This document shows positions 11,465-25,528 of a DNA stretch of 64,000 bases, piece by piece. Where the stretch lies: assembly GCF_022213955.1 (NCBI RefSeq), contig NZ_JAKNTW010000019.1:124001-188000 (forward strand). Reading direction: 5' to 3'. Below the pieces are notes generated by a model. That model saw nothing but the letters and a program-made list of their open reading frames with translations. It had not been told where the DNA came from and searched no databases. Source of the DNA: Dolomitihabitans soli (GTDB taxonomy: Bacteria; Actinomycetota; Actinomycetes; Streptosporangiales; Streptosporangiaceae). Position 1 is the stretch's first letter. Each line of letters opens with the position of its first letter. Made by a program: the position numbers and the translations under genes.

Positions 11465-11525
11465 CCCCTGCCCGGTGACCTCACGCGCTTTCACCCCACC
11501 CATTCCACTGGGAAAGGAACCCCCC

Positions 11526-13160
11526 ATGTACCAAGTCTCCCGGCGTCAGGCGTTGCTCGCCATCGGTGCGTTCACCCTCACGATCGCCGGCTGCGGCAGT
11601 GACGAGCCGGAGCAGGGCAAGGACCTCTCGCCGAACAAGGACGGCGCGATGGCCAAGTACGGCGTCGGCGACCAGTTCAAGGCGACGGCACCGCTCACCT
11701 TCTCCATCCTCTACCTCAACCACCCGAACTATCCGCTCAAGAAGGACTGGCTGTTCTGGTCGGAACTCAACAAGCGGACCGGGGTGACGCTCACGCCGAC
11801 ACTGGTGCCGCTCAGCGACTACGAGCAGAAGCGCAGCCTGGTGATCGGAGCCGGTGACGCCCCGCTCATCATCCCGAAGACCTACCCGGGCCAGGAGGTA
11901 CCTTTCGTCGCCTCCGGCACCATCCTTCCGGTCAGCGACCACCTCGACCTGATGCCCCACTTCAAGGACAAGGTCGCCAAGTGGAACCTGCAGGCCGACG
12001 TGGACACGCTCCGGCAGTCCGACGGCCGGTTCTACCTGCTCCCCGGGCTACATGAGGAGATCTGGCTCGACTACTCCCTGGCCGTCAGGACCGACATCCT
12101 GGAGAAGCTCGGCCTGGAGGTCCCGAAGACCTGGGAGGAGCTGTACACCGTACTCAAGGCGATGAAGGCCGAGTATCCCGACCTCTATCCCTTCTCCGAC
12201 AGGTGGGGCATCCCCACCCCGGGCGGCAACCTGCTGAACATCGTCGGCCAGGCGTACGGCGCCCCCGGCGGCTGGGGTTACCTTCCCGCGAGGTGGGATG
12301 CGACCGCCGGGAAGTTCGCCTTCACCGGCGCCATGGACCAGTACCGGCAGATGCTGGTGTATCTCAACAAGCTGGTGAAGGAGAAGCTGCTCGACCCGGA
12401 GAGCTTCACCCAGACCGACGACGCCGCGAAGCAGAAGTTCGTGTCCGGCAAGACCTTCGTGACCGGCACCAACGCGCAGACGCTGGTCAACGACTACCGG
12501 CCGCCGATGGAGAAGCTGAACCCGGACGCCAAGATCGCCAAGATCCCGGTGCCGACGGGACCGCTCGGCGAGGTCAAGTACGGCAACCGCCTCGAGAACG
12601 GCATCATGATCTCGAAGAAGGCCCTGGAGAGCAAGAACTTCGTCGCCATGATGCAGTTCATCGACTGGCTCTGGTACTCGGACCAGGGCGAGGAGTTCGC
12701 CAAGTGGGGCGTCGAAGGGGTCACGTCGACCAAGGACGCGTCCGGTGAGTTCAAGCTGGCGCCGGACGTCGACTTCATCGGGCTCAATCCCGAGGGAAAG
12801 AAGCACCTGCAGAAGGACTTCGGATTCTCCAACGGAGTGTTCGCGTACGGCGGGACCACCAAGCTTCTCGAATCGACCTTCTCCGAGGAGGAGCTGGCGT
12901 TCCAGGCGGTGATGAAGACCAGGAAGGCCCGTCCGGTGGAGCCTCCGCGCCCGTTCTCCGACGAGGAGCGCGAGCAGGCGAGCCTGTGGGAGACGCCGCT
13001 GAAGGACTACGTCACCCAGATGACGCTCAAGTTCATCCTCGGCGATCGCGACCTCGGCGAGTGGGACGCCTACGTCAAGGAGCTGGAGGCCAAGAACATG
13101 ACGTCCTACATGAACCTGGTCAACGGCGCGTACGAGCGCTTCAAGAAGGAACACGGCTGA
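11526..13160 (+). CDS. lplA: Extracellular oligosaccharide-binding lipoprotein, LplA type
   Basis: A 544-residue solute-binding protein of the large LplA/YtcQ type that delivers oligosaccharides to the two permeases just upstream. The signal peptide runs from MYQVSRRQALLAIG to the lipobox IAGC, with the lipidated Cys at residue 23. The twin Arg start (SRRQ) may mean export by the Tat route, which is common for actinobacterial lipoproteins. AAAGGA lies about nine bases before the ATG; an in-frame upstream ATG at 11475 would spoil the signal peptide. The long mature region ending in MNLVNGAYERFKKEHG is as expected for the family. The ligand is probably an aldouronate or xylo-oligosaccharide, by context. 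Confidence 0.88.
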   Translation: MYQVSRRQALLAIGAFTLTIAGCGSDEPEQGKDLSPNKDGAMAKYGVGDQFKATAPLTFSILYLNHPNYPLKKDWLFWSELNKRTGVTLTPTLVPLSDYEQKRSLVIGAGDAPLIIPKTYPGQEVPFVASGTILPVSDHLDLMPHFKDKVAKWNLQADVDTLRQSDGRFYLLPGLHEEIWLDYSLAVRTDILEKLGLEVPKTWEELYTVLKAMKAEYPDLYPFSDRWGIPTPGGNLLNIVGQAYGAPGGWGYLPARWDATAGKFAFTGAMDQYRQMLVYLNKLVKEKLLDPESFTQTDDAAKQKFVSGKTFVTGTNAQTLVNDYRPPMEKLNPDAKIAKIPVPTGPLGEVKYGNRLENGIMISKKALESKNFVAMMQFIDWLWYSDQGEEFAKWGVEGVTSTKDASGEFKLAPDVDFIGLNPEGKKHLQKDFGFSNGVFAYGGTTKLLESTFSEEELAFQAVMKTRKARPVEPPRPFSDEEREQASLWETPLKDYVTQMTLKFILGDRDLGEWDAYVKELEAKNMTSYMNLVNGAYERFKKEHG

Positions 13161-13985: not shown

Positions 13986-16079
13986 TCAGTGGATGCGTCG
14001 GCCGTGGGCGTCGGGAACCCCTGACTTGCGGAAGAAGTAGGCGTTGACCTGGTCACGCCATTCCTCGGCGCTGCGGAGCTGTTCGTCGAGCCGCTCCTTC
14101 ACTCGGGCGTGCAGCTCCGGGGCCACCAAACCGTCGCCCGCCAGCTTCTCCCACCGCAGCCGGGTCTCGGCCACCCGCTCGGCCCCCTCGAAGTGGGTGT
14201 CGTAGATGTGCTGGACGACCGTCGATCCGTCATGCAGCACGTGCCCGTACGGAACATGGTGGAAGAACAGCAGCAGCTCGTCGGGACACTCGGTGAGCGA
14301 CTCGTACACGTCCGACCACGGCGGCGGGTACTGGCCGGTGAAGCCGGTTCCGGAGGCGCGGGTCCGGTCGACGCCGACGCCGTCCCGGTCGGCGAAGTGG
14401 TAGGTGCCCCACGGGGTGTACTCGTACCCGTCCACGTCGGGGCCGTAGTGATGCCCGGGACGGACCATGAATCCGACGCCCAGCGGCGCGGTGTACCGCT
14501 CGTAGGTCGTCCAGGACTCGTCCATCATTTCGTGCAGCGTGCGCCGCAGCCGCTCGGGGTCGCCGGTCGCCGACGGCACGAAGGTGAGGTCGATCCATTC
14601 GTCGAGGATGGCGACCGGGTCGGTCCGCGGCGCCCAGGCGAGCCGGCCGAACGCGTACAGGTTGGCCTGTGCCAGCGGGTGCCCGGTCCAGAAGGGATCG
14701 TCGCCCACGTTGGAGACCGCGACCAGGTCACCGGCGCCACCCGCCGCAGGGCCGTCGGCGACCACGTCTGCCACGGTCCGCCCGCCGTCCCCCCAGGGGC
14801 GGAACCCGAGCGTCTCACTCCACATCGGGGCCAGGTAGCACACGTGTCGCTGCTGGCCGGTGTACTCCTGCGTCACCTGGAACTCCACCGCCAGGCGGGT
14901 CGCCGGCAGGGCCGCGATCACCGGCGACAGCGGTTCCCGCACCTGGAAGTCCATCGGGCCGTGCTTCACCTGCAGGATCGCGTTGTCGCGGAACCGCCCG
15001 TCGAGCGGGGCGAAGTGGTCGAAGGCCGCGCGGGCCCGATCGGTCGACCGGTCGCGCCAGTCCTGCCGATGGTTGTAGACGAAGGCGCGCCAGTGCACGA
15101 CCCCGCCGAACGGCGCCGCCGCGTCGGCGAGCATGTTCGCGCCGTCCGCGTGGCTGCGGCCGTACGCGAACGGACCGGGCTGCCCTTCCGAGTCGGCCTT
15201 CACCAGATAGCCGCCGAAGTCAGGGATCGTCGCGTAGACCCGCTCGGTGGTTCGCGCCCACCATTCCCGCACGCTCTCGTCGAGGGGATCGGCGGTCGGC
15301 AACCCGCCGAGGGCGATGGGCGAGGCGAAGTTGACCGACAGATGCACCCGAATCCCGTACGGGCGCAGCGCGTCCGCGATCGCGACGACGTCACCGAGCC
15401 GATCCGTCAGCAGCCGGGCCTCCGCGGCGTGCACGTTCACGTTGTTCACCGCGACCGCGTTCACCCCGCACGCGGCCAGCAGCCGCCCGTAGGCCCGCAC
15501 CCGGGTCAGGTCACCGCGCAGGGCGCCGTTCTGCCAGAAGATCGATCCGCCCGCGTAGCCACGCTCGACCTGACCCATCACCGGATGCACGTCGATGTTG
15601 TCCCAGTGGTCGATCATGCGCCGTCGTGTCGCGGGCCGGTGCCGTTCCACCGGCCGGGCGGACCCGAACGCCGACTCGCCGAGCCGGACCACCTGGAACA
15701 GGCCGTAGAGCAGCCCGGCCGGTTCGTCGGCGAGCACCACCGTGACGCCGTCGCGACAGGCGAGCACGAAACCCTCGGCACCGCAGGCGTCCGGTCCGAA
15801 CTCCCGCAGGGCCTCGCCCCGGACCTCCTCCGCGACGGCCGGCAGGGCCGCCATCGAGGAAAGCGCGAGCACAAGATCGACCTGCTGGTCACCGACCTGG
15901 TCCGACACCGGATGCGGCACGCTGCCGCCGTACAGACCGCACGCGTGCACGACCTCGTCACGCACGGTCTCGGCGAGGGGCCCGTCGGCGTGCACGAGGA
16001 CGCGACGTGAACCGATCGCTCGAAACGCCTCCGGCGGCAGCCACGCCGCATGGACGTCGATCAGCTCAGGAATGGTCAC
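13986..16079 (-). CDS. aguA: GH67 alpha-glucuronidase
   Basis: This 697-residue cytoplasmic enzyme removes (4-O-methyl-)glucuronic acid from the non-reducing end of short aldouronates, leaving xylo-oligosaccharides for the GH3 enzyme. Family hallmarks are FWQNGALRGDLTRVRAYGR, NNVNVHAAEA, the acidic active-site loop GGYLVKADSEGQPGPF, HWRAFVYNH and AVEFQVTQEYTGQQRH. It has no signal peptide, so substrates must be imported, consistent with the LplABC-like importer. The GTG at 16079 has GGAGGAG six bases upstream. It is encoded convergently to the importer operon, so it has a separate promoter; no copy of the GAAA/TTTC palindrome was seen in front of it. Confidence 0.95.
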   Translation of the reverse strand: MTIPELIDVHAAWLPPEAFRAIGSRRVLVHADGPLAETVRDEVVHACGLYGGSVPHPVSDQVGDQQVDLVLALSSMAALPAVAEEVRGEALREFGPDACGAEGFVLACRDGVTVVLADEPAGLLYGLFQVVRLGESAFGSARPVERHRPATRRRMIDHWDNIDVHPVMGQVERGYAGGSIFWQNGALRGDLTRVRAYGRLLAACGVNAVAVNNVNVHAAEARLLTDRLGDVVAIADALRPYGIRVHLSVNFASPIALGGLPTADPLDESVREWWARTTERVYATIPDFGGYLVKADSEGQPGPFAYGRSHADGANMLADAAAPFGGVVHWRAFVYNHRQDWRDRSTDRARAAFDHFAPLDGRFRDNAILQVKHGPMDFQVREPLSPVIAALPATRLAVEFQVTQEYTGQQRHVCYLAPMWSETLGFRPWGDGGRTVADVVADGPAAGGAGDLVAVSNVGDDPFWTGHPLAQANLYAFGRLAWAPRTDPVAILDEWIDLTFVPSATGDPERLRRTLHEMMDESWTTYERYTAPLGVGFMVRPGHHYGPDVDGYEYTPWGTYHFADRDGVGVDRTRASGTGFTGQYPPPWSDVYESLTECPDELLLFFHHVPYGHVLHDGSTVVQHIYDTHFEGAERVAETRLRWEKLAGDGLVAPELHARVKERLDEQLRSAEEWRDQVNAYFFRKSGVPDAHGRRIH

Positions 16080-16327
16080 GAACGCTCCTCCGGGCAGGCG
16101 TGCCGAGCCGTCACGACGGCTCGTCCGAACGTGAATCTATCGAAGGGGAACGCGCCGGCGACGGCCAGCCCGCCTTCCCACCTGGTGACCACCCTGGTGA
16201 CCGCCCTGGCGCACCGGCCGGCGGACTGGCTCGTACGCCCGTGGCCGTCGGTCACGTTCTCCAGGGGAACTGACGTTCGGCTGCTAAGGTGGAAGGCGCA
16301 TGTGATCCGGATTCAGGGAGACCAGAC

Positions 16328-16357
16328 ATGGCAGGTGACGACGACATTTCCGGGTGA
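16328..16357 (+). CDS. Putative 9-residue leader peptide upstream of ABC-F gene
   Basis: A tiny frame encodes MAGDDDISG and is preceded by a strong ribosome site, AGGGAG at 16315-16320, seven bases from the ATG. It ends 128 bases before the ABC-F start. Leader peptides of this kind, where stalled ribosomes change mRNA folding, control many antibiotic-resistance ABC-F and methyltransferase genes. The run of three Asp codons could be a stall site. Expression is not shown by the sequence, only the ribosome site and the frame. The 248 bases from 16080 to here hold no gene, only a short direct repeat of CCTGGTGACC near 16180-16210. Confidence 0.5.
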   Translation: MAGDDDISG

Positions 16358-16393
16358 GACCGGAAGTGATCGGCCCCGGACGGCGCGCGGGAG

Positions 16394-16462
16394 CGCAGCC
16401 GCGGTGGCCGTGTCGTCGTTTCACGAATCCCCTGTCTCTCGCTGGGCGGCTGCGGCGCGCCC
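16394..16462 (+). promoter_or_regulatory. Alternative hairpins, candidate attenuator for ABC-F gene
   Basis: CGCAGCCGC at 16394-16402 can pair perfectly with GCGGCTGCG at 16446-16454. The latter overlaps GGGCG at 16444-16448, which can instead pair with CGCCC at 16458-16462 just ahead of the ribosome site of the ABC-F gene. The two structures exclude each other, as expected for an attenuator or ribosome-site switch controlled by translation of the leader peptide at 16328. In such GC-rich DNA some pairing arises by chance, so this is a hypothesis. Confidence 0.4.
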
Positions 16463-16485
16463 GCCTCACGTACGAGGTCTCTCGC

Positions 16486-18123
16486 ATGTCCGACGCTTTC
16501 ATCATCTGTTCCACCCTGTCCTTCTCCTGGCCTGACGGCACGCCGGTCTTCCGGGATCTGTCCTTCGTCGTGGGCGCCGGCCGTACGGGCCTCGTCGCGC
16601 CGAACGGCGCCGGGAAGAGCACCCTGCTCAAGCTGATCGCCGGCGAGTACCGGCCCGGTGGCGGGAGCGTGTCCGCCAAGGGCGTGCTCGGCTATCTCCC
16701 GCAGACTCTGCCGCTCGCCGGCGACCTGACCGTGGCCGAGGTCCTGGGGATCTCCGCGGTGATCGGCGCGCTGGACGCCATCGAGTCAGGGGACGCGAGC
16801 GAGGAGCACTTCACCACGATCGGCAACGACTGGGACATCGAGGAGCGCACCCGTGCCCAGCTGGACCGGCTCGACCTCGGCGACGTCTCCCTCACCAGGC
16901 GCCTGAACACCCTCAGCGGCGGCCAGGTCGTCTCTCTCGGACTGGCGGCGCAACTGCTGAAGCGCCCCGACGTCCTGCTGCTCGACGAGCCGACCAACAA
17001 CCTCGACCTGGCCGCGCGCCACCAGCTGTACGGCGTGCTGGAAGCCTGGAACGGCTGCCTGCTGCTGGTCAGCCATGATCGGGCGTTGCTCGACCGGATG
17101 GACCGCATCGCCGAACTCGACACCGGCGAGTTCCGGTCCTACGGCGGGAACTACACCGCCTACGAGGAGGCCGTACGCGCCGAGCGGGAGGTCGCCGAGA
17201 AGAACGTCCGCAACGCCGAGCAGGAGGTCAAGCGGGAGAAGCGGGAACTGCAGCAGGCCCGCGAACGGGCCGAACGCCGGGCGAACAACGCGGCCCGCAA
17301 CATCAAGAACGCCGGCCTGCCGAAGATCGTCGCCGGCGCCATGAAGCGCGGCGCCCAGGAGTCGGCGGGCAGAGCGGGGCAGACCCACGCGGCGCGGGTC
17401 GGCGACGCGAAGGCCCGGCTCGACGAGGCGAGCCGGGCGCTGCGCGACGAGCAGAAGATCGCGCTGGAACTGCCCGGGACCAACGTCCCGGCCGGCCGCA
17501 CGGTCTTCCTCGGCGAACGGATGCAGGCCGGTTACGCCGGTCAGACCCTGTTCGCCGGCGACGGCGTCGACCTGACCATCCGGGGACCCGAGCGGATCGC
17601 GCTGACCGGCCCCAACGGCTCCGGCAAGTCCACCCTGCTCCGCATGATCGACAACGGGCTGGCGCCGGTGAGCGGCCGGATCAGGCGAGCCGACGGTCGC
17701 ATCGCCTACCTGTCCCAACGGCTGGACCTGCTGGATCTCGACCGCACCGTGGCGGAGAACCTGGCCGCGTTCGCGCCCGGGATGCCGGAGGCGCAGCGGA
17801 TGAACCTGCTCGCCCGCTTCCTGTTCCGCGGCTCCCGCGCGCACCTGCCGGTCGGGGCGCTGTCCGGCGGCGAACGGCTCCGCGCCACCCTGGCCTGCGT
17901 CCTGTGCGCCGAACCGGCTCCCCAGCTGCTGCTGCTGGACGAACCCACCAACAACCTCGACCTGGTCAGCATCGGCCGGCTGGAGAGCGCGCTCAGCGCG
18001 TACGAAGGCGCGTTCGTGGTGGTCAGCCACGACGAGCGGTTCCTCACGGAGATCGGGGTGAACCGCTGGCTGGCACTGTCCGAGGGCCGCCTGCTGGAAA
18101 CCGGAGGCCCCGACGGCGCCTGA
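16486..18123 (+). CDS. ABC-F family ATPase, ribosome-protection type
   Basis: A 545-residue soluble protein with two ABC ATPase domains and no membrane segments. Walker A motifs are APNGAGKST (N-terminal) and GPNGSGKST (C-terminal). Signature motifs are LSGGQ and LSGGER, and both Walker B regions read LLLDEPTNNLDL. A long Arg/Lys/Glu-rich linker (about residues 230-310) lies between them. ABC-F proteins act on the ribosome as translation factors, and many give resistance to macrolides, lincosamides, pleuromutilins or streptogramins. The ATG at 16486 follows GAGG by eight bases. The long leader with a mini-ORF and hairpins supports a drug-inducible resistance role, which is inferred; a housekeeping role is possible. 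Confidence 0.9.
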   Translation: MSDAFIICSTLSFSWPDGTPVFRDLSFVVGAGRTGLVAPNGAGKSTLLKLIAGEYRPGGGSVSAKGVLGYLPQTLPLAGDLTVAEVLGISAVIGALDAIESGDASEEHFTTIGNDWDIEERTRAQLDRLDLGDVSLTRRLNTLSGGQVVSLGLAAQLLKRPDVLLLDEPTNNLDLAARHQLYGVLEAWNGCLLLVSHDRALLDRMDRIAELDTGEFRSYGGNYTAYEEAVRAEREVAEKNVRNAEQEVKREKRELQQARERAERRANNAARNIKNAGLPKIVAGAMKRGAQESAGRAGQTHAARVGDAKARLDEASRALRDEQKIALELPGTNVPAGRTVFLGERMQAGYAGQTLFAGDGVDLTIRGPERIALTGPNGSGKSTLLRMIDNGLAPVSGRIRRADGRIAYLSQRLDLLDLDRTVAENLAAFAPGMPEAQRMNLLARFLFRGSRAHLPVGALSGGERLRATLACVLCAEPAPQLLLLDEPTNNLDLVSIGRLESALSAYEGAFVVVSHDERFLTEIGVNRWLALSEGRLLETGGPDGA

Positions 18124-18461: not shown

Positions 18462-21311
18462 ATGATGATGGACGGCGCATCGTTCGGACGCGTGGTCTCG
18501 CCGGTCATGGTGGGGCGCGAGGACGAGTTACGCCGTCTGGTGGCCGCGGTGAGCCGCCCGCCCGCCGTGGTGGTGCTGGAAGGCGAGGCCGGCATCGGGA
18601 AGACCAGACTCGTCGCGGAGATGGCGGCGCACCCCGACGTGGCCGCCCGGGTGTTCCTCGGCGGCGGGGCCAGGAGGATCCGGGAGCCGTTCCCGCTGGG
18701 GCCCCTGGTGGAGGCGTTGCGCGGGATGGGCGAACCGCTGGCGCGGGCCGAGCTGTCGCCGGTCGCCGGTGCGTTGCGCGGCCTGCTGCCCGAGCTGGCC
18801 GGGGTGCTGCCGCCCGCGCTGGAGCCACTGGACGACCGGGCGGCCGAACGGCACCGGCTGTTCCGCGGTCTCGCGGACGCGCTGGGCGCCCTCGGTCCGG
18901 TGGTCCTGGTGGTGGAGGACCTGCACTGGGCGGACGAGCAGACGAGGGAGTTCCTCGCCTACCTGCTGGGCGCCCTGCCGGAGAAGATGTCGGTGGTGCT
19001 CACCTACCGGGGGGAGGAGGCGGGGCCCGAGATCCGGGAGACCACGGCACGCCTCGCGGACGCGGTCTTCCACGATCACGTCGTCCTTACGACTCTGGAC
19101 GCTGAGCAGACCGGCCTGCTCGCCGCGTCGATCCTCGACGAGGAGGACGTCACCGCCGACTTCTCCGCGCATCTGTACGAGCGGTCGTCGGGGTTGCCGC
19201 TGGCCGTACAGGAGCTGATGGCGCTGCTGCGCGAGCGCGGCGCGTTGATCCGGTTGCGCAGCGGGCGGTGGGCGCGCAAGGCGCTGGCGGAGCTGGACGT
19301 GCCGCCGGGAGTTCGCGACTCCGTGCGCGAGCGGGTGTCGCGGCTGCCGGCGGCGGCGCGTGGGGTCGCGGCGGCCGCGGCGGTGCTGCAGGTGCCGGTC
19401 CGGGTCGCGGTGCTGGCGCAGGTGGGCGGGTTGACGAAGGCCGAGGCCGTGGCCGGCGTGGACGAGCTGCTGGTGTCGGGTCTGCTGACCGAGCAGGACG
19501 GGGCGGTGGCCTTCCGCCACATGCTGGCCGCGCAGGCGGTGTACGGGGGGATCCCGCTGGGGCGGCGGGAGGATCTGCACGCGCACGCGGCCGGGGCGGT
19601 GCGCTCGCTGGGGCAGCGAGCCCACCATCTCCGCCAGGCGGGGCTGCTGCGTGACTGGGTGGAGGTCGCGGACCAGGCCGCCGCGCAGGCGTCGGAGCTG
19701 GGTGACGACGCCGGGGCCGTGCGGATCCTGGAGGACGTGCTGCGCAACGCTCCGCTGGAGCCGGATCGACGGGTACGGCTGGCGGTACGGCTCGGCTGGG
19801 CCGCCGGCCAGGTGCTCCGGCCACCGGACGTGATCGACCTGTTGTCCGAGGCGCTGGAGCCCGAGCGGCCCGGACCGCTGCGCGGGCAACTGCACTTCCT
19901 GATCGGCCTGCTGCACGAGCGGCTCGGCGCCGACCCCGGCACGCAGCGGCGCTCGTTCGCGGCGGCGGTCGACGATCTGGGCGACCGGCCGGAGCTCGCG
20001 GCATGGGTGATGGCCGCCCTAGGCCGGCCGATGGACGCGGCGGTGCCCCTGGCCGAGCATGTCGTATGGCTGGACCGGGCACTGGAGGTGGTGCCCGCCA
20101 TCGGCGACCCGGTCGAGGAGGTCTTCGTGCTCGGCAAGATCGCGACCTCGCTGAGCGGGATCGGCGATCCGCGCTGGGCCACGCTGACCGAGGACGTCAG
20201 GCGGCGGACCGGCGGCCGCCCCCGGCATCGCCAGGAGATCAACGCCTATCGCTCCATCGCGGAGAACGCGTGCTGCTCGGGGCACTTCGAGCTGGCCGAC
20301 CGGCTCCTGACCGCCGCGTCGCGGGCGGCGGCGGGTGCGGAGGGCTCGCGGGAGCCGCTGGCCCGCTGCCGTCTGGTCGCCCTGCTGCTGGCCTACTGCC
20401 GGGGCGCGTGGGACGGGCTGGAGCAGGAGACCGCGTTGCTGCTCGACGAGTACGGCGAGCGCCCGTACGACCGCATCGCCCCTGAGACGGTCGCGGCCTG
20501 CCTGGCGCTGGCCCACAGCGACCTTGACACCGCCCGGCGCGATCTGCGCGACGTCGTCCTGCGCGCTGTGACCCTGGGCGCCTACGAACTGCTCCCGCTG
20601 TCGGTGACCGGGTTCCTGCGGCTGGCCACCGCACACGGCGAAGCCGCGGCCGCGCTGGAGGTGATCGTCCCAGCGCTCGCCATCTGGCGGACCAAGGGCC
20701 TGTGGCCGCTGGCGGTGCGGGCGGCGCCGGCCCTGGCGGAGGCGATGACGGCGGCGGGGCGGCGGGACGAAGCCGTGGATTTGGTCGATCGACTCGCCGA
20801 GCTGCTCGACGGCCTGGACGCGCCCATGGCCGAGGCCGCGCTGCCGCACGCCCGCGGTTACCTGACGGAGTCCGCGGCCGAGCACTTCCTGGCCGCGGCG
20901 TCCGCCTATGACCGGCTGGGCGCGCCGTACGAGGCGGCCCAGGCCCGTGAGCGGGCGGCCGGAGGGCTGTTCGAGGCGGGGGACGCGCGTGCCGGTGAGG
21001 TGCTGAGCGCGGCCCTCGCCGCCTTCGGCGGGCTCGGCGCCCGCTGGGACGTGGATCGCGCGGCGCAACTGGCACGCAGGCACGGGGTGCCGGTGAAGGG
21101 GCGCTATCCCGGTGGCCCGCACGGCTACGGCGCCGGGTTGTCCCCCCGGGAACGGGAGATAGCCGAGCTGGCCGCGGCCGGGCTGACCAACCGGGAGATC
21201 GGCGAGCAGCTCTTCGTCTCGCCGAGGACGGTGGAGAAGCATCTCGGGGCTGCCCTGCGCAAGCTCGGGCTGCGCTCGCGCGCCGCCCTGGGAACCCACC
21301 TCCGGACGTGA
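18462..21311 (+). CDS. LuxR-family LAL-type ATPase transcriptional regulator
   Basis: A 949-residue cytoplasmic regulator with an N-terminal AAA/NTPase module: Walker A EGEAGIGKTRLV near residue 40 and Walker B-like VVLVVEDLHWADE. A long helical middle follows, of the kind used for ligand or partner binding. The C-terminal LuxR HTH (GLSPREREIAELAAAGLTNR, SPRTVEKHL) takes up the last 60 residues. LAL regulators often sit in or near secondary-metabolite or sugar-use loci. The ATG at 18462 follows GGAGG by eight bases. Neither neighbour is an obvious target; the small peptide and subtilase downstream are the nearest candidates. Confidence 0.92.
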   Translation: MMMDGASFGRVVSPVMVGREDELRRLVAAVSRPPAVVVLEGEAGIGKTRLVAEMAAHPDVAARVFLGGGARRIREPFPLGPLVEALRGMGEPLARAELSPVAGALRGLLPELAGVLPPALEPLDDRAAERHRLFRGLADALGALGPVVLVVEDLHWADEQTREFLAYLLGALPEKMSVVLTYRGEEAGPEIRETTARLADAVFHDHVVLTTLDAEQTGLLAASILDEEDVTADFSAHLYERSSGLPLAVQELMALLRERGALIRLRSGRWARKALAELDVPPGVRDSVRERVSRLPAAARGVAAAAAVLQVPVRVAVLAQVGGLTKAEAVAGVDELLVSGLLTEQDGAVAFRHMLAAQAVYGGIPLGRREDLHAHAAGAVRSLGQRAHHLRQAGLLRDWVEVADQAAAQASELGDDAGAVRILEDVLRNAPLEPDRRVRLAVRLGWAAGQVLRPPDVIDLLSEALEPERPGPLRGQLHFLIGLLHERLGADPGTQRRSFAAAVDDLGDRPELAAWVMAALGRPMDAAVPLAEHVVWLDRALEVVPAIGDPVEEVFVLGKIATSLSGIGDPRWATLTEDVRRRTGGRPRHRQEINAYRSIAENACCSGHFELADRLLTAASRAAAGAEGSREPLARCRLVALLLAYCRGAWDGLEQETALLLDEYGERPYDRIAPETVAACLALAHSDLDTARRDLRDVVLRAVTLGAYELLPLSVTGFLRLATAHGEAAAALEVIVPALAIWRTKGLWPLAVRAAPALAEAMTAAGRRDEAVDLVDRLAELLDGLDAPMAEAALPHARGYLTESAAEHFLAAASAYDRLGAPYEAAQARERAAGGLFEAGDARAGEVLSAALAAFGGLGARWDVDRAAQLARRHGVPVKGRYPGGPHGYGAGLSPREREIAELAAAGLTNREIGEQLFVSPRTVEKHLGAALRKLGLRSRAALGTHLRT

Positions 21312-21529: not shown

Positions 21530-24500
21530 ATGTCTGCACGCAGAGGATTACTCCTCATGGCCTCAATGCTGATGCTGGGGCCGCTGCTCCCGGCCAGTGC
21601 GACCGCCGCCATTCAGGAGCCCGAGCCCGTCAGAGAGACGGGGACCCCGGGGCCGGTCGCGCTGTCCGGGCTGGGCCGGGGCGCGCACACGGTCACCTTG
21701 ATCACCGGTGACCGGGTGCGGCTGGCCGACGCGGGGGCCGGCAAGTACGCCGTGCGCCCCGAGCCGGCTCCCCGGGCCGACGGGACCCGAGCGCTGTTGT
21801 CGGTCATGGCGACCCCGGACGCGGTGTACGTCACGCCCAGCGACGCGATGCCGGCCATCCAGGCCGGCCGTCTGGACCGGGAACTGTTCAACGTCAAATA
21901 CCTGGCCGAGCACGGCTACACCGACGACAAGGCCAAGGAACTGCCGGTCATCGTGCAGTACCCGAAGGAGCGGCCGGGCCCGGCCGTCGCCTCGGCCGCC
22001 AAGGCGATCCCGGCCAGTGAGCCCACGCTGACGCTGGAGAGCGTCAACGCCTCCGCGGTCAACGTCACCAAGGCGGACGCGGGCGCGTTCTGGAGCGCGG
22101 TGCGAGCCGTACCCGTGAAGACCGGGGCCGCCCGGTTGAGCGGCGACATCAGCAAGGTGTGGCTGGACCGCAAGGTCAAGGCCGACCTGGCCGAGAGCGT
22201 GCCGATGATCGGCGCGCCGCAGGCGTGGGCGGGCGGGCACGACGGAACCGGCGTGAAGGTCGCCGTCCTGGACACCGGCATCGACGCCACGCACCCGGAC
22301 CTGGCCGGCAAGATCGCCGACAGCCGCTCCTTCATCCCCGGCCAGGAGGTGCGGGACGGGCACGGCCACGGCACCCACGTGGCCTCCACCATCGCCGGAT
22401 CCGGCGCCGCGGCGAACGGCACGCACAAGGGCGTCGCCCCCGGCGCCCAGCTGATCGTCGGCAAGGTGCTCGACGACACGGGTTCCGGACTCGACTCCCA
22501 GGCCATCGAGGGGATGGAGTGGGCGGTGGCCGGCGGCGCCAAGGTGGTCAGCATGAGCCTCGGCAGCGGCCCCACCGACGGGACCGACCCGATGAGCCAG
22601 GCGGTCAACGCGCTGAGCGGCTCCAGCGGCGCGCTGTTCGTCATCGCCGCCGGCAACCTCGGCGCCTCGGGCACCGAGACGGTCGCCTCCCCGGGTACGG
22701 CGGACGCCGCGCTGACCGTCGCCGCGGTGGACAAGGACGACAAGTGGGCCCCGTTCTCCAGCCAGGGGCCGCGCGTCGACGGCGGGCTCAAGCCCGACAT
22801 CGCCGCGCCCGGAGTCGCCATCACCGCCGCGCGCGCCGCCGGCACCACGATGGGCACCCCGCTCAACGACCACTACACCGCCGCCGCGGGCACCTCGATG
22901 GCGACCCCGCACGTGGCGGGAGCCGTGGCGATCATGGCCCAGCAGCATCCGGACTGGACCGGGGCACAGCTCAAGGCGGCGGTGATGTCGACCGCCAAGG
23001 ACGACGAGCTCGGCGCGTACAAGCAGGGCGCGGGCCGGGTCGACCTGGCCAGGGCGCACGCCCAGCAGGTCTTCGCCACGACCGCCGGGCTCGACTTCGC
23101 CGCGATCGAGGGCGGGAGCGACCCCGTCAGCCGGAGCCTGACCTACACCAACCTCGGCGCCCAGCCGATCACCCTGGCGCTCACCCCGGCCCTGCACGAA
23201 TCCGACGGCACCCCGGTGGAGGCGGCGCTGAGCCTGGCCGACGCGACCCTCACCGTGCCGGGCGGCGGCACCGCGACCACCACGGTCACCCTCGACCCCA
23301 AGGACCTGGCCCTGGGCAACTACACCGGCGCCGTGACCGCGGCCGCCGACGGGGTCCGGCTGCGCACGCCCGCCGGCGCCGTGCGGCAGCAGCCCAAGGC
23401 CACGCTCACCATCCACACGCTGGGCCGGGACGGCAAGCCGTACAGTCCCTGGGGGCAGGACACCATCGACGTGTCCGGCGACAAGGGCATCATCGGCGGC
23501 ACCCTCCTCACCGAGGTGGGAACCACGATCACCCGCGTGCCGCAGGGCACCGTCAGCGTGACCCAGGTGCTCGACTGGACCGGCGACGACGACAGGTACA
23601 ACCTGGCGTTCCTGTTCCAGCCCGAGATCGAGGTCACCGGGGACACCGAGATCACCCTCGACGCCCGGCAGTTGTCCGAGGTCCGCTTCACCACCCCGAA
23701 ACCGGCGGAACCGCTCAACAACGACGTCACCTTCGCCTTCCAGCGGACGGTGTCCAACGGCGACGCCTACATGGGTGCCCTGGGGACGAACACGCCGATC
23801 GGATCCTGGGCACGACTGTGGGCCAATCCCACCAAGCCGGTCGACAAGGGCGCCTTCCGCTTCCACTCCCGCTTCACCCTCGGCCAGCCCGAGGTCGCGA
23901 TGAGCGTAAGCGGCCGCGACAAGCTCACCCTGCACCCGGCCGCCCCGATGCACGCCTTCGACGCGTACGGCGAGCACCGTCAGGAGGGCACCTTCCCCGA
24001 CTTCCGGCCGTTCACCGGGACCCGCGACCTGGAGGTCGTCGACGTCGGTGAGGGCAGGCCCGAGGACATCGCCGGCCGTGACCTGCGCGGCAAGCTCGTC
24101 CTGATGGAGGCGCGAAAGGCCGACGGGATCTTCGGCCCCGCGTGCGGCGCCCAGATCGAGCGGATCGGCCCGATCCGCGACGCCGGCGCGGCCGCGGTCG
24201 CGCACTTCCCGATGGCCGGCACCGGCTGCACGATTCCGCTCGGCATCGCCCAGAAGCCGTTCACCGGAGAACCCAAGCCCATCGGCATCCCCAACGTCTC
24301 GTTGCCCGGACGGGAGGCGTACCAGCTGCGCGAGCGGATCGCCGGGGGCAAGACGGTCACCGTCCAGGTGACGGGCACCGAGGAATCGCCCTACACCTAC
24401 ACCTTCGCGCCGTACGAGGAGGAGCGCGTCCCGCGTTCCCTGCACTACACCTTCACCGAGCGGGACCTGGCCCGGATCGACATGGACATGCACACCGTCG

Positions 24501-25528
24501 CGCCCGAGCGGTACAGCGACTGGCGGTACGCCTGGAAGGTGGACGACGTCCTGCCGCTGTCGTCGCAGCCCTCGCTGTGGGGCACCCCCCGGCTGACCGC
24601 GCAGCAACGGCGTGACTGGGTCGGGCCCCTCGACCGCGAGGTCGTCAGCTCGCACGGCATGTGGGAGATGGCCAACCCGCTGGGGATGAACGAGATGCGT
24701 CCGCAGTGGGCGCTGGAGGTGTTCGACAAGCCGGTCCGCCTCCGGCAGTCGTGGCCGACCACCCCGTTCACGCCGGGCGCCGCGACCGGCTCGGACCAGT
24801 TGTACAAGCTGGCCAAGCCCGGCGCCAACCTGGGCTGGAGCTTCCGCTGCATGATCTGCGTCCGGGGCGACGCCCTGTGGGCGGAGTTCGAGCTCAGCAA
24901 CGGGACCGAGGGCGGCCGCCAGTACAACGGCGACTACTGGAGCGGTCCCTTCGAACCGGGCTTCGACGTCCGCCTGTACCGGCAGGACAAGGAGATCCCC
25001 CGCGACACCGTGCTCGGCGCTGACATCTTCCCGCACTTCACGCTCCCGGAAGGAGCCGGAAAGTACCGCCTGACCGCCAAGAACGCGACGCACGACGCCG
25101 AGTGGACCTTCACCACCCCCGTGAAGACCGAAGGACTTCCCGGCGCCGACTGCTCCCTCGAGCGGTTGTACGGCACGGCGGAACGCTGCAAGCCCGCACC
25201 CGTCGTGTTCGTCAGCTACGACCTGGGTGACACCCTCGACGCCGCCAACACGGTGCGGGCGGGCCGTACCCACACCTTCACCGTCTCTCCCTACCACTCG
25301 CCGTCGCCCACCCGGATGCCCGAGATCGCGGGTCTGAAACTGTGGGCCAGCACCGACGACGGCGCCACGTACCAACCTGTGTCCGTCAAGGAGAACAGGG
25401 ACGGCACGTACACCGCCAAGACCCGTTACCCCGTCGGCAAGGACGCCGTGACCCTCAGGGTGGAGGCCTGGGACAAGGCGGGCAACACGCTCAAGCAGAC
25501 GACCACTCGCGCCTTCAACCTGCGCTGA
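21530..25528 (+). CDS. Large secreted S8 family (subtilisin-like) serine protease
   Basis: A 1332-residue exported protease. The signal peptide (MSARRGLLLMASMLMLGPLL) has a probable cleavage site after ASATA. A pro-region of about 200 residues follows. The S8 catalytic triad is intact: Asp in VAVLDTGIDATHPDL, His in GHGHGTHVAST and Ser in GTSMATPHVAGA. The C-terminal half of about 800 residues is a set of beta-rich domains, including a PA-like segment (LRGKLVLMEARKADGIF) and a likely bacterial Ig-like end. Large multi-domain subtilases of this kind are typical of sporulating actinomycetes and degrade extracellular protein. AAAGGG is eight bases before the ATG. A strong terminator follows, so it is the end of its transcript. 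Confidence 0.92.
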   Translation: MSARRGLLLMASMLMLGPLLPASATAAIQEPEPVRETGTPGPVALSGLGRGAHTVTLITGDRVRLADAGAGKYAVRPEPAPRADGTRALLSVMATPDAVYVTPSDAMPAIQAGRLDRELFNVKYLAEHGYTDDKAKELPVIVQYPKERPGPAVASAAKAIPASEPTLTLESVNASAVNVTKADAGAFWSAVRAVPVKTGAARLSGDISKVWLDRKVKADLAESVPMIGAPQAWAGGHDGTGVKVAVLDTGIDATHPDLAGKIADSRSFIPGQEVRDGHGHGTHVASTIAGSGAAANGTHKGVAPGAQLIVGKVLDDTGSGLDSQAIEGMEWAVAGGAKVVSMSLGSGPTDGTDPMSQAVNALSGSSGALFVIAAGNLGASGTETVASPGTADAALTVAAVDKDDKWAPFSSQGPRVDGGLKPDIAAPGVAITAARAAGTTMGTPLNDHYTAAAGTSMATPHVAGAVAIMAQQHPDWTGAQLKAAVMSTAKDDELGAYKQGAGRVDLARAHAQQVFATTAGLDFAAIEGGSDPVSRSLTYTNLGAQPITLALTPALHESDGTPVEAALSLADATLTVPGGGTATTTVTLDPKDLALGNYTGAVTAAADGVRLRTPAGAVRQQPKATLTIHTLGRDGKPYSPWGQDTIDVSGDKGIIGGTLLTEVGTTITRVPQGTVSVTQVLDWTGDDDRYNLAFLFQPEIEVTGDTEITLDARQLSEVRFTTPKPAEPLNNDVTFAFQRTVSNGDAYMGALGTNTPIGSWARLWANPTKPVDKGAFRFHSRFTLGQPEVAMSVSGRDKLTLHPAAPMHAFDAYGEHRQEGTFPDFRPFTGTRDLEVVDVGEGRPEDIAGRDLRGKLVLMEARKADGIFGPACGAQIERIGPIRDAGAAAVAHFPMAGTGCTIPLGIAQKPFTGEPKPIGIPNVSLPGREAYQLRERIAGGKTVTVQVTGTEESPYTYTFAPYEEERVPRSLHYTFTERDLARIDMDMHTVAPERYSDWRYAWKVDDVLPLSSQPSLWGTPRLTAQQRRDWVGPLDREVVSSHGMWEMANPLGMNEMRPQWALEVFDKPVRLRQSWPTTPFTPGAATGSDQLYKLAKPGANLGWSFRCMICVRGDALWAEFELSNGTEGGRQYNGDYWSGPFEPGFDVRLYRQDKEIPRDTVLGADIFPHFTLPEGAGKYRLTAKNATHDAEWTFTTPVKTEGLPGADCSLERLYGTAERCKPAPVVFVSYDLGDTLDAANTVRAGRTHTFTVSPYHSPSPTRMPEIAGLKLWASTDDGATYQPVSVKENRDGTYTAKTRYPVGKDAVTLRVEAWDKAGNTLKQTTTRAFNLR

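Follow-up and report, generated by a model that had tools for sequence, protein, structure and literature searches.

A tiaA-type leader ahead of an ABC-F gene of Dolomitihabitans soli, with comparative evidence for a possible Shine-Dalgarno exchange

The window analysed here, a stretch of 64,000 nucleotides from Dolomitihabitans soli, carries at positions 16486-18123 of the forward strand a gene for a 545-aa ABC-F protein of the ribosomal-protection type (NCBIfam NF000355, 387 bits against a cut-off of 380; two stretches of Pfam ABC_tran). Its neighbours on the 5' side code for a glycosyl hydrolase family 67 protein (13986-16079, reverse strand) and a solute-binding protein (11475-13160, forward strand), likely a sugar-use locus, so that the ABC-F gene appears to stand in unrelated surroundings. 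On its 3' side follow, both on the forward strand, genes for a large AAA/LuxR-type regulator (18462-21311) and a subtilase-family protease (21530-25528). A pattern scan of 16080-16600 found neither a sigma-70-type promoter consensus nor an intrinsic terminator. By reading, TAAGGT at 16285-16290 (forward strand) is a candidate -10 element, the alignment consensus at this place being TGCTAnGGTG, from which we infer an RNA start near 16297-16299 and a 5'UTR of about 187-189 nt.

The initial annotation had described a strong ribosome site followed by a nine-residue frame, MAGDDDISG, and both were confirmed: the uORF, of the tiaAL type by sequence reading and literature, occupies 16328-16357 (nine codons and the stop), GGGAGA precedes its ATG at 16328, and the distance from this ATG to that of the ABC-F gene is 158 nt. 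All leader features lie on the forward strand. The Shine-Dalgarno region of the uORF, GGGAGACC (SD1, 16316-16323), forms in the window eight pairs, one of them G-U, with 16476-16483 (-14.8 kcal/mol; folding and covariation), that is, with the ABC-F start region TIR2 (16474-16485), which consists of the Shine-Dalgarno GAGG (16474-16477) and a pyrimidine-rich spacer. Codons 4-7 of the uORF (segment A, 16337-16348) are the 5' arm of a long-range helix, A:B, whose 3' arm is GTCGTCGT (segment B, 16411-16419; inverted repeat and pairing tests). Folding gives a hairpin H2 spanning the uORF stop (16345-16368, arms 16345-16353/16360-16368) and, after the uORF, a hairpin H3 (GGCC..GGCC, 16372-16409). 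CCTGTC at 16431-16436 is complementary to GGCAGG, which lies at 16330-16335 over the uORF start, and hairpin H4 (16444-16462) lies immediately upstream of the ABC-F ribosome site. The leader as a whole folds at -98.6 kcal/mol (z -2.12), with 2 of 200 shuffles equally good. Two perfect 9-bp inverted repeats are present in 16299-16485, namely 16338-16346/16411-16419 and 16394-16402/16446-16454, compared with a mean of 0.13 in dinucleotide shuffles (two or more in 3 of 300). None of the 4227 Rfam models matched in the window at gathering score, and none matched in 16200-16560 even at E up to 1.

A leader of this layout has been described for S. coelicolor tiaA, whose 194-nt 5'UTR contains the uORF tiaAL, MVGDDDISG, and at whose uORF start codon lincosamides, a pleuromutilin and streptogramin A are reported to stall ribosomes (PMC12421871). 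In the same report, the tiaA promoter and a transcriptional fusion are constitutive and a translational fusion is antibiotic-responsive, the authors noting that the RBS of the reporter may interfere with the former fusion; their discussion still has an antiterminator, the published model is one of terminator and antiterminator, and the text has the uORF ribosome sites overlap the antiterminator hairpins (PMC12421871). The window uORF differs from tiaAL at residue 2 alone, the 5'UTR is similar in length and an ABC-F gene lies downstream; what sets the window leader apart is the organism, and, on the tiaA side, that published model with its reporter discrepancy. Having an M-x-G-D-D-D-I-S-G uORF and a long 5'UTR ahead of an ABC-F gene, the window leader is, judged by its sequence, a member of the already known tiaA-type kind. 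The lmrC attenuator of S. lincolnensis, similar to the window by description only, likewise serves an actinomycete ABC-F gene, there of subfamily ARE5, and has the same drug classes and a uORF in the 5'UTR, but is reported as transcriptional, its terminator having been mutated and restored (PMC8546547). Likewise by description only, the cplR and vmlR leaders of Firmicutes share a short uORF and early drug stalling, and cplR sequesters the ABC-F Shine-Dalgarno, whereas their uORFs have three codons (MRI, MIN) and cplR has a poly-U terminator (PMC10201436, PMC9226507). In the literature as far as it was accessible, which excludes supplementary Fig. S4 of PMC12421871 as not readable, we found no proposal of an SD1:TIR2 exchange for a tiaA-type leader; what the present analysis adds is comparative evidence that argues for SD1:TIR2 pairing and for an RNA-level constraint on DDDISG.

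A DNA search with the window leader through 341 genomes of the family gave 109 loci that were used, 106 of them with an ABC-F match. Long leader matches occurred in many genera and several further family genomes matched only 40 bases over the uORF; the tally of 231 of the 341 genomes matched at E 0.01 includes many short, chance-like matches. A pattern scan for the uORF core in named genomes yielded at least 120 stretches; as the pattern fixes GACGACGAC, exceptions there are visible only in the 106 family-search leaders, which were found by similarity. Among the pattern-scan matches listed (at least 120), 116 had an ABC-F match, and in 115 of these 116 the gene lay directly behind the uORF. 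With its tiaAL counterpart, the leader falls into the class that had been assigned initially, drug-sensing ribosome-mediated attenuation. The four listed loci without an ABC-F match (L123, L216, L232 and L238) are cut off by contig ends, which leave 188, 104, 45 and 122 nt. At least 18 named actinomycete genera carry the leader ahead of an ABC-F gene among 80 listed scan matches, including Streptomyces, Micromonospora, Kitasatospora, Pseudonocardia, Mycobacterium, Nonomuraea, Actinomadura and Blastococcus. The exact core was found in 3 of 396 genomes sampled across the phylum, the window's own being one of the three. In a plasmid collection 35 records matched, 34 of them Streptomyces; the remaining one, a Nonomuraea record of 11.85 Mb, is hardly a plasmid. 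Given these genera and the Streptomyces plasmid records, the leader appears to be a widespread form of resistance-gene control in antibiotic-producing soil bacteria. Streptomyces loci L133 and L164 encode MVGDDDISG, the same peptide as tiaAL, and the window ABC-F, a candidate TiaA orthologue of subfamily ARE5, is 77-78% identical to theirs.

Deduplication reduced 221 leaders to 191 unique ones. L083, L117 and L119 were dropped (no ABC-F match, the core being matched weakly in L117 and L119), as were, from the pattern-scan set, L123, L216, L232 and L238 (no ABC-F match) and L171 (match not adjacent), while L116 (241-nt leader) and the second-class loci described below were left out of the MAFFT alignment A1. 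Length and flank filters were applied ahead of the swap, H4-position and ribosome-state analyses (sets of 164 and 153 leaders). L083 and L171, both of Nonomuraea pusilla and on contigs of equal length, have a complete uORF core with no adjoining ABC-F gene, possibly an orphan leader.

Conservation of the peptide and of the stems in relatives had been set as a test in the initial annotation, and the uORF and several stems are indeed kept. GAC fills codons 4-6 nearly everywhere in this set of 191; the substitutions (GAA, GAG, GTC and CTC) all change the residue, and one leader is short of a codon within this stretch. GAT, which makes up 5.4% of the aspartate codons in ABC-F genes, was found at codons 4-6 in none of 573 codons of these leaders and in none of 318 in the 106 family-search leaders. 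Ser8 is encoded by TCC in 189 of 191 leaders against a background of 41.6%, Gly9 by GGG in 178 of 191 against 19.8%, and codon 2 is GCA, 2.3% of alanine codons in ABC-F genes, in 93 of 191; exact probabilities for such codon use are weakened by the relatedness of the sequences. This codon bias (no GAT, and TCC, GGG and GCA) points to a constraint mostly at the RNA level, and suggests that DDDISG is held mainly there. Of the 106 family-search leaders, 91 have aspartate at positions 4-6, and in nine of the others position 4 is glutamate, which preserves the charge, so that a need for charge may still play some part.

The consensus that RNAalifold derived from the MAFFT alignment was weak (-6.33 kcal/mol, 13 pairs, 3 changed on both sides), and no pair reached significance in a columnwise covariation test with a tree-based null (best E 4.7), for which the alignment was too noisy. 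We therefore used arm-swap tests, which compare how well each leader's arm pairs with its native partner and with the corresponding arms of distant leaders (164 leaders); the sequences are related and not independent, so that the permutation figures overstate significance. H4 was the best covarying element (own -15.28, swapped -12.17, z -11.5), a figure that may be somewhat favoured by delimiting the H4 arms through folding of each leader. It has a median of 9 pairs and ends at a median of 9 nt before GAGG in 147 leaders, 17 of the 164 having no GAGG near the start and being left out of this count. Covariation was also seen for H3 (z -4.3) and for the pairing between SD1 and the ABC-F start region (z -3.9 against distant leaders); A:B gave z -2.2, and H2 did not covary (z -0.9, 164 leaders). 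For the uORF start with CCTGTC the swap gave z -1.4, with z -2.7 for the start-codon region, and the segment beginning at -4 of the uORF paired best among the 12-base segments tested (mean -9.2).

The repeat 16394-16402/16446-16454, which joins the 3' arm of H3 to the 5' arm of H4, is, as we read the initial annotation, one of its two exclusive helices; it exists, and because it shares bases with H4 the two helices are mutually exclusive. As a switch it was rejected, having no covariation (own -13.70, swapped -13.71, z 0.0) and being rare in every modelled ribosome state, at about 1-5% of the ensemble (share per base 0.008 with no ribosome, 0.053 with one at the uORF start and 0.031 with one at the stop; 153 leaders). 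For A:B, the window has 11 pairs including G-U, equalled in 0 of 300 shuffles, but a universal helix is too strong a claim, p 0.05 being reached alone by only 37% of 190 leaders. In the 15 leaders with altered codons 4-6 the A:B mean was -9.65 with the own partner and -8.05 when swapped. The own partner beat the average in nine (L024, L029, L036, L056, L057, L060, L073, L113 and L114) and was no better in six (L026, L108, L109, L111, L112 and L115), and in only five (L024, L029, L036, L113 and L114) did the altered arm fit its own partner better than the consensus arm would.

Pairing of SD1 with TIR2 extends well beyond the window. Over 173 leaders the duplex mean was -10.81, as against -6.55 with unrelated start regions, and six or more consecutive pairs occurred in 88 of the 173 against 8.3% of control pairings; in the other 85 six consecutive pairs are missing. 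For the permutation set, which kept 187 of the 191 leaders (four without flank or readable start region were left out), unique SD1/TIR2 pairs (n = 172) gave -11.25 with the own partner and -10.50 when permuted, with 0 of 5000 permutations as good. The 103 leaders with a non-canonical SD1 gave a weaker signal: the native partner was better than the canonical mean in only 57, 67 of 5000 permutations matched the native value, and canonical SD1s paired slightly better with the start regions of these variants (-10.50) than their own SD1s did (-10.30). The divergent SD1s of L156, L124, L155 and L154 are fitted far better by their own start region than by the canonical one, for example GGAGGC with GCCTCC in Pseudonocardia L156, GGAGCGC with GCGTTCC in Pseudonocardia L124 and CGGAG with CTCCG in Micromonospora L155. 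Pyrimidines make up at least 85% of the bases that separate GAGG from ATG in 106 of 153 leaders, a composition reached by 1.1% of 174 background genes with the same Shine-Dalgarno.

We propose that this is a tiaA-type drug-sensing ribosome-mediated attenuator that acts mainly on translation, through a Shine-Dalgarno exchange, a reading to which we give an even chance of being correct. Without drug, the Shine-Dalgarno of the uORF (16316-16323) would pair with the ABC-F start region (16476-16483), in a stem perhaps prolonged by the uORF start with CCTGTC and by codons 4-7 with segment B, so that the two starts would lock each other. When a lincosamide, pleuromutilin or streptogramin A blocks the first peptide bonds, a ribosome would be held on the uORF start codon; by keeping SD1 and covering the first codons, this ribosome would break SD1:TIR2 and most of A:B and expose the ABC-F start. 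Start-codon stalling and a drug-responsive translational fusion are reported as demonstrated for S. coelicolor tiaA (PMC12421871); for the present leader, sequence comparison shows conservation and covariation, from which we infer the exchange and its operation in this organism. Modelling backs the exchange only partly. With a start-stalled ribosome, the ABC-F start region as a whole became more open, from a mean of 0.356 to 0.439 across 153 leaders (a gain of over 0.1 in 65, a loss in 10), compared with a change of -0.008 for a control mask of 33 bases elsewhere. The four Shine-Dalgarno bases, on the other hand, lost openness (0.331 to 0.222, with gains in 6 and losses in 71 of 153) because nearby pairing rose (0.293 to 0.366), and a local hairpin still covers the Shine-Dalgarno core in the model. 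A ribosome may melt this weak local hairpin more readily than the long-range stem, but it is here that the model is weakest.

The comparison of leaders offers a testable answer as to whether tiaA is controlled at transcription or at translation, and also as to why the peptide is conserved although drug stalling precedes the synthesis of most of it. It is possible, though we would put it a little short of even, that the Shine-Dalgarno of the uORF itself locks the start of the resistance gene, that a trapped initiation complex derepresses this gene by occupying its own site without depending on any specific arrest peptide, and that DDDISG arises secondarily from RNA pairing and codon choice. If this is true, such a minimal sensor would respond whenever a drug traps ribosomes at the first codons, and the constitutive transcriptional fusion of tiaA would be explained.

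Control by transcription attenuation alone, with H4 terminating in the drug-free state and a ribosome stalled on the uORF favouring an antiterminator, appears unlikely to us. H4, with its strong covariation, stands where a terminator would be expected, T is somewhat richer after it (0.29 versus 0.19), and a terminator mechanism is reported as shown for lmrC by terminator mutants (PMC8546547) and as proposed for tiaA (PMC12421871). The GC hairpin is present, but it has no T run after it and no terminator pattern; the one antiterminator candidate examined is the non-covarying, rare helix 16394-16402:16446-16454, H4 is about equally probable in all ribosome states (0.40, 0.35 and 0.35; 153 leaders), and folding finds it seemingly absent from the short leaders L127 and L224. 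The constitutive transcriptional fusion of tiaA also speaks against termination, although its authors suspect the reporter RBS (PMC12421871). Doubtful, too, is control at both levels, as in vmlR or cplR, with a Shine-Dalgarno exchange and partial termination at H4. It would account for covariation in both H4 and SD1:TIR2, and CplR is described as combining both levels (PMC10201436), VmlR likewise by the title of the report (PMC9226507); H4 could terminate without a T run, and hence a combined mechanism could operate, but the weaknesses of the pure terminator model apply here as well.

Arrest of the ribosome, or sensing of the drug, by the DDDISG chain as such is highly improbable. The aspartates at 4-6, with glutamate at position 4 in nine exceptions, would fit such an arrest, but tiaAL stalling is reported at the start codon (PMC12421871) and the codon use set out above points to an RNA constraint. 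The Shine-Dalgarno exchange remains the reading that we prefer.

Of seven short leaders, six lack H3 by reading and folding, an H3-like hairpin being kept in L200, and among the seven A:B lies clearly above shuffles only in L124 (4 of 300). L127, from Mycobacterium sp. IS-1742, is very short, its gene start being estimated at about 69 nt, and keeps the uORF core with no H3, no H4 and no A:B pairing above shuffles; it is a natural minimal form of the leader. For L127 and L200 the estimated start lies some bases 5' of the true ATG, and values for their start regions are rough.

A second ABC-F, 32-37% identical, is found behind 17 unique leaders. In the genome of the window itself, two places have identical scores to another ABC-F (L004, G000 C14:174684-176153, and L005, C39:1012-2481), reflecting either a recent duplication or a redundant assembly. 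In the family loci L030, L047, L055, L076 and L077 a short remnant like the first tiaA-type codons lies between the leader and the second ABC-F (33-37% identity), which looks like the replacement of one resistance gene by another under a kept leader. In L145, L155, L173, L174, L190 and L208, five of which are named Micromonospora, second-class ABC-Fs (32-35% identity) stand directly behind a leader with the SD1 ATCGGAG, and most of these six have the matching start region CTCCGAGG.
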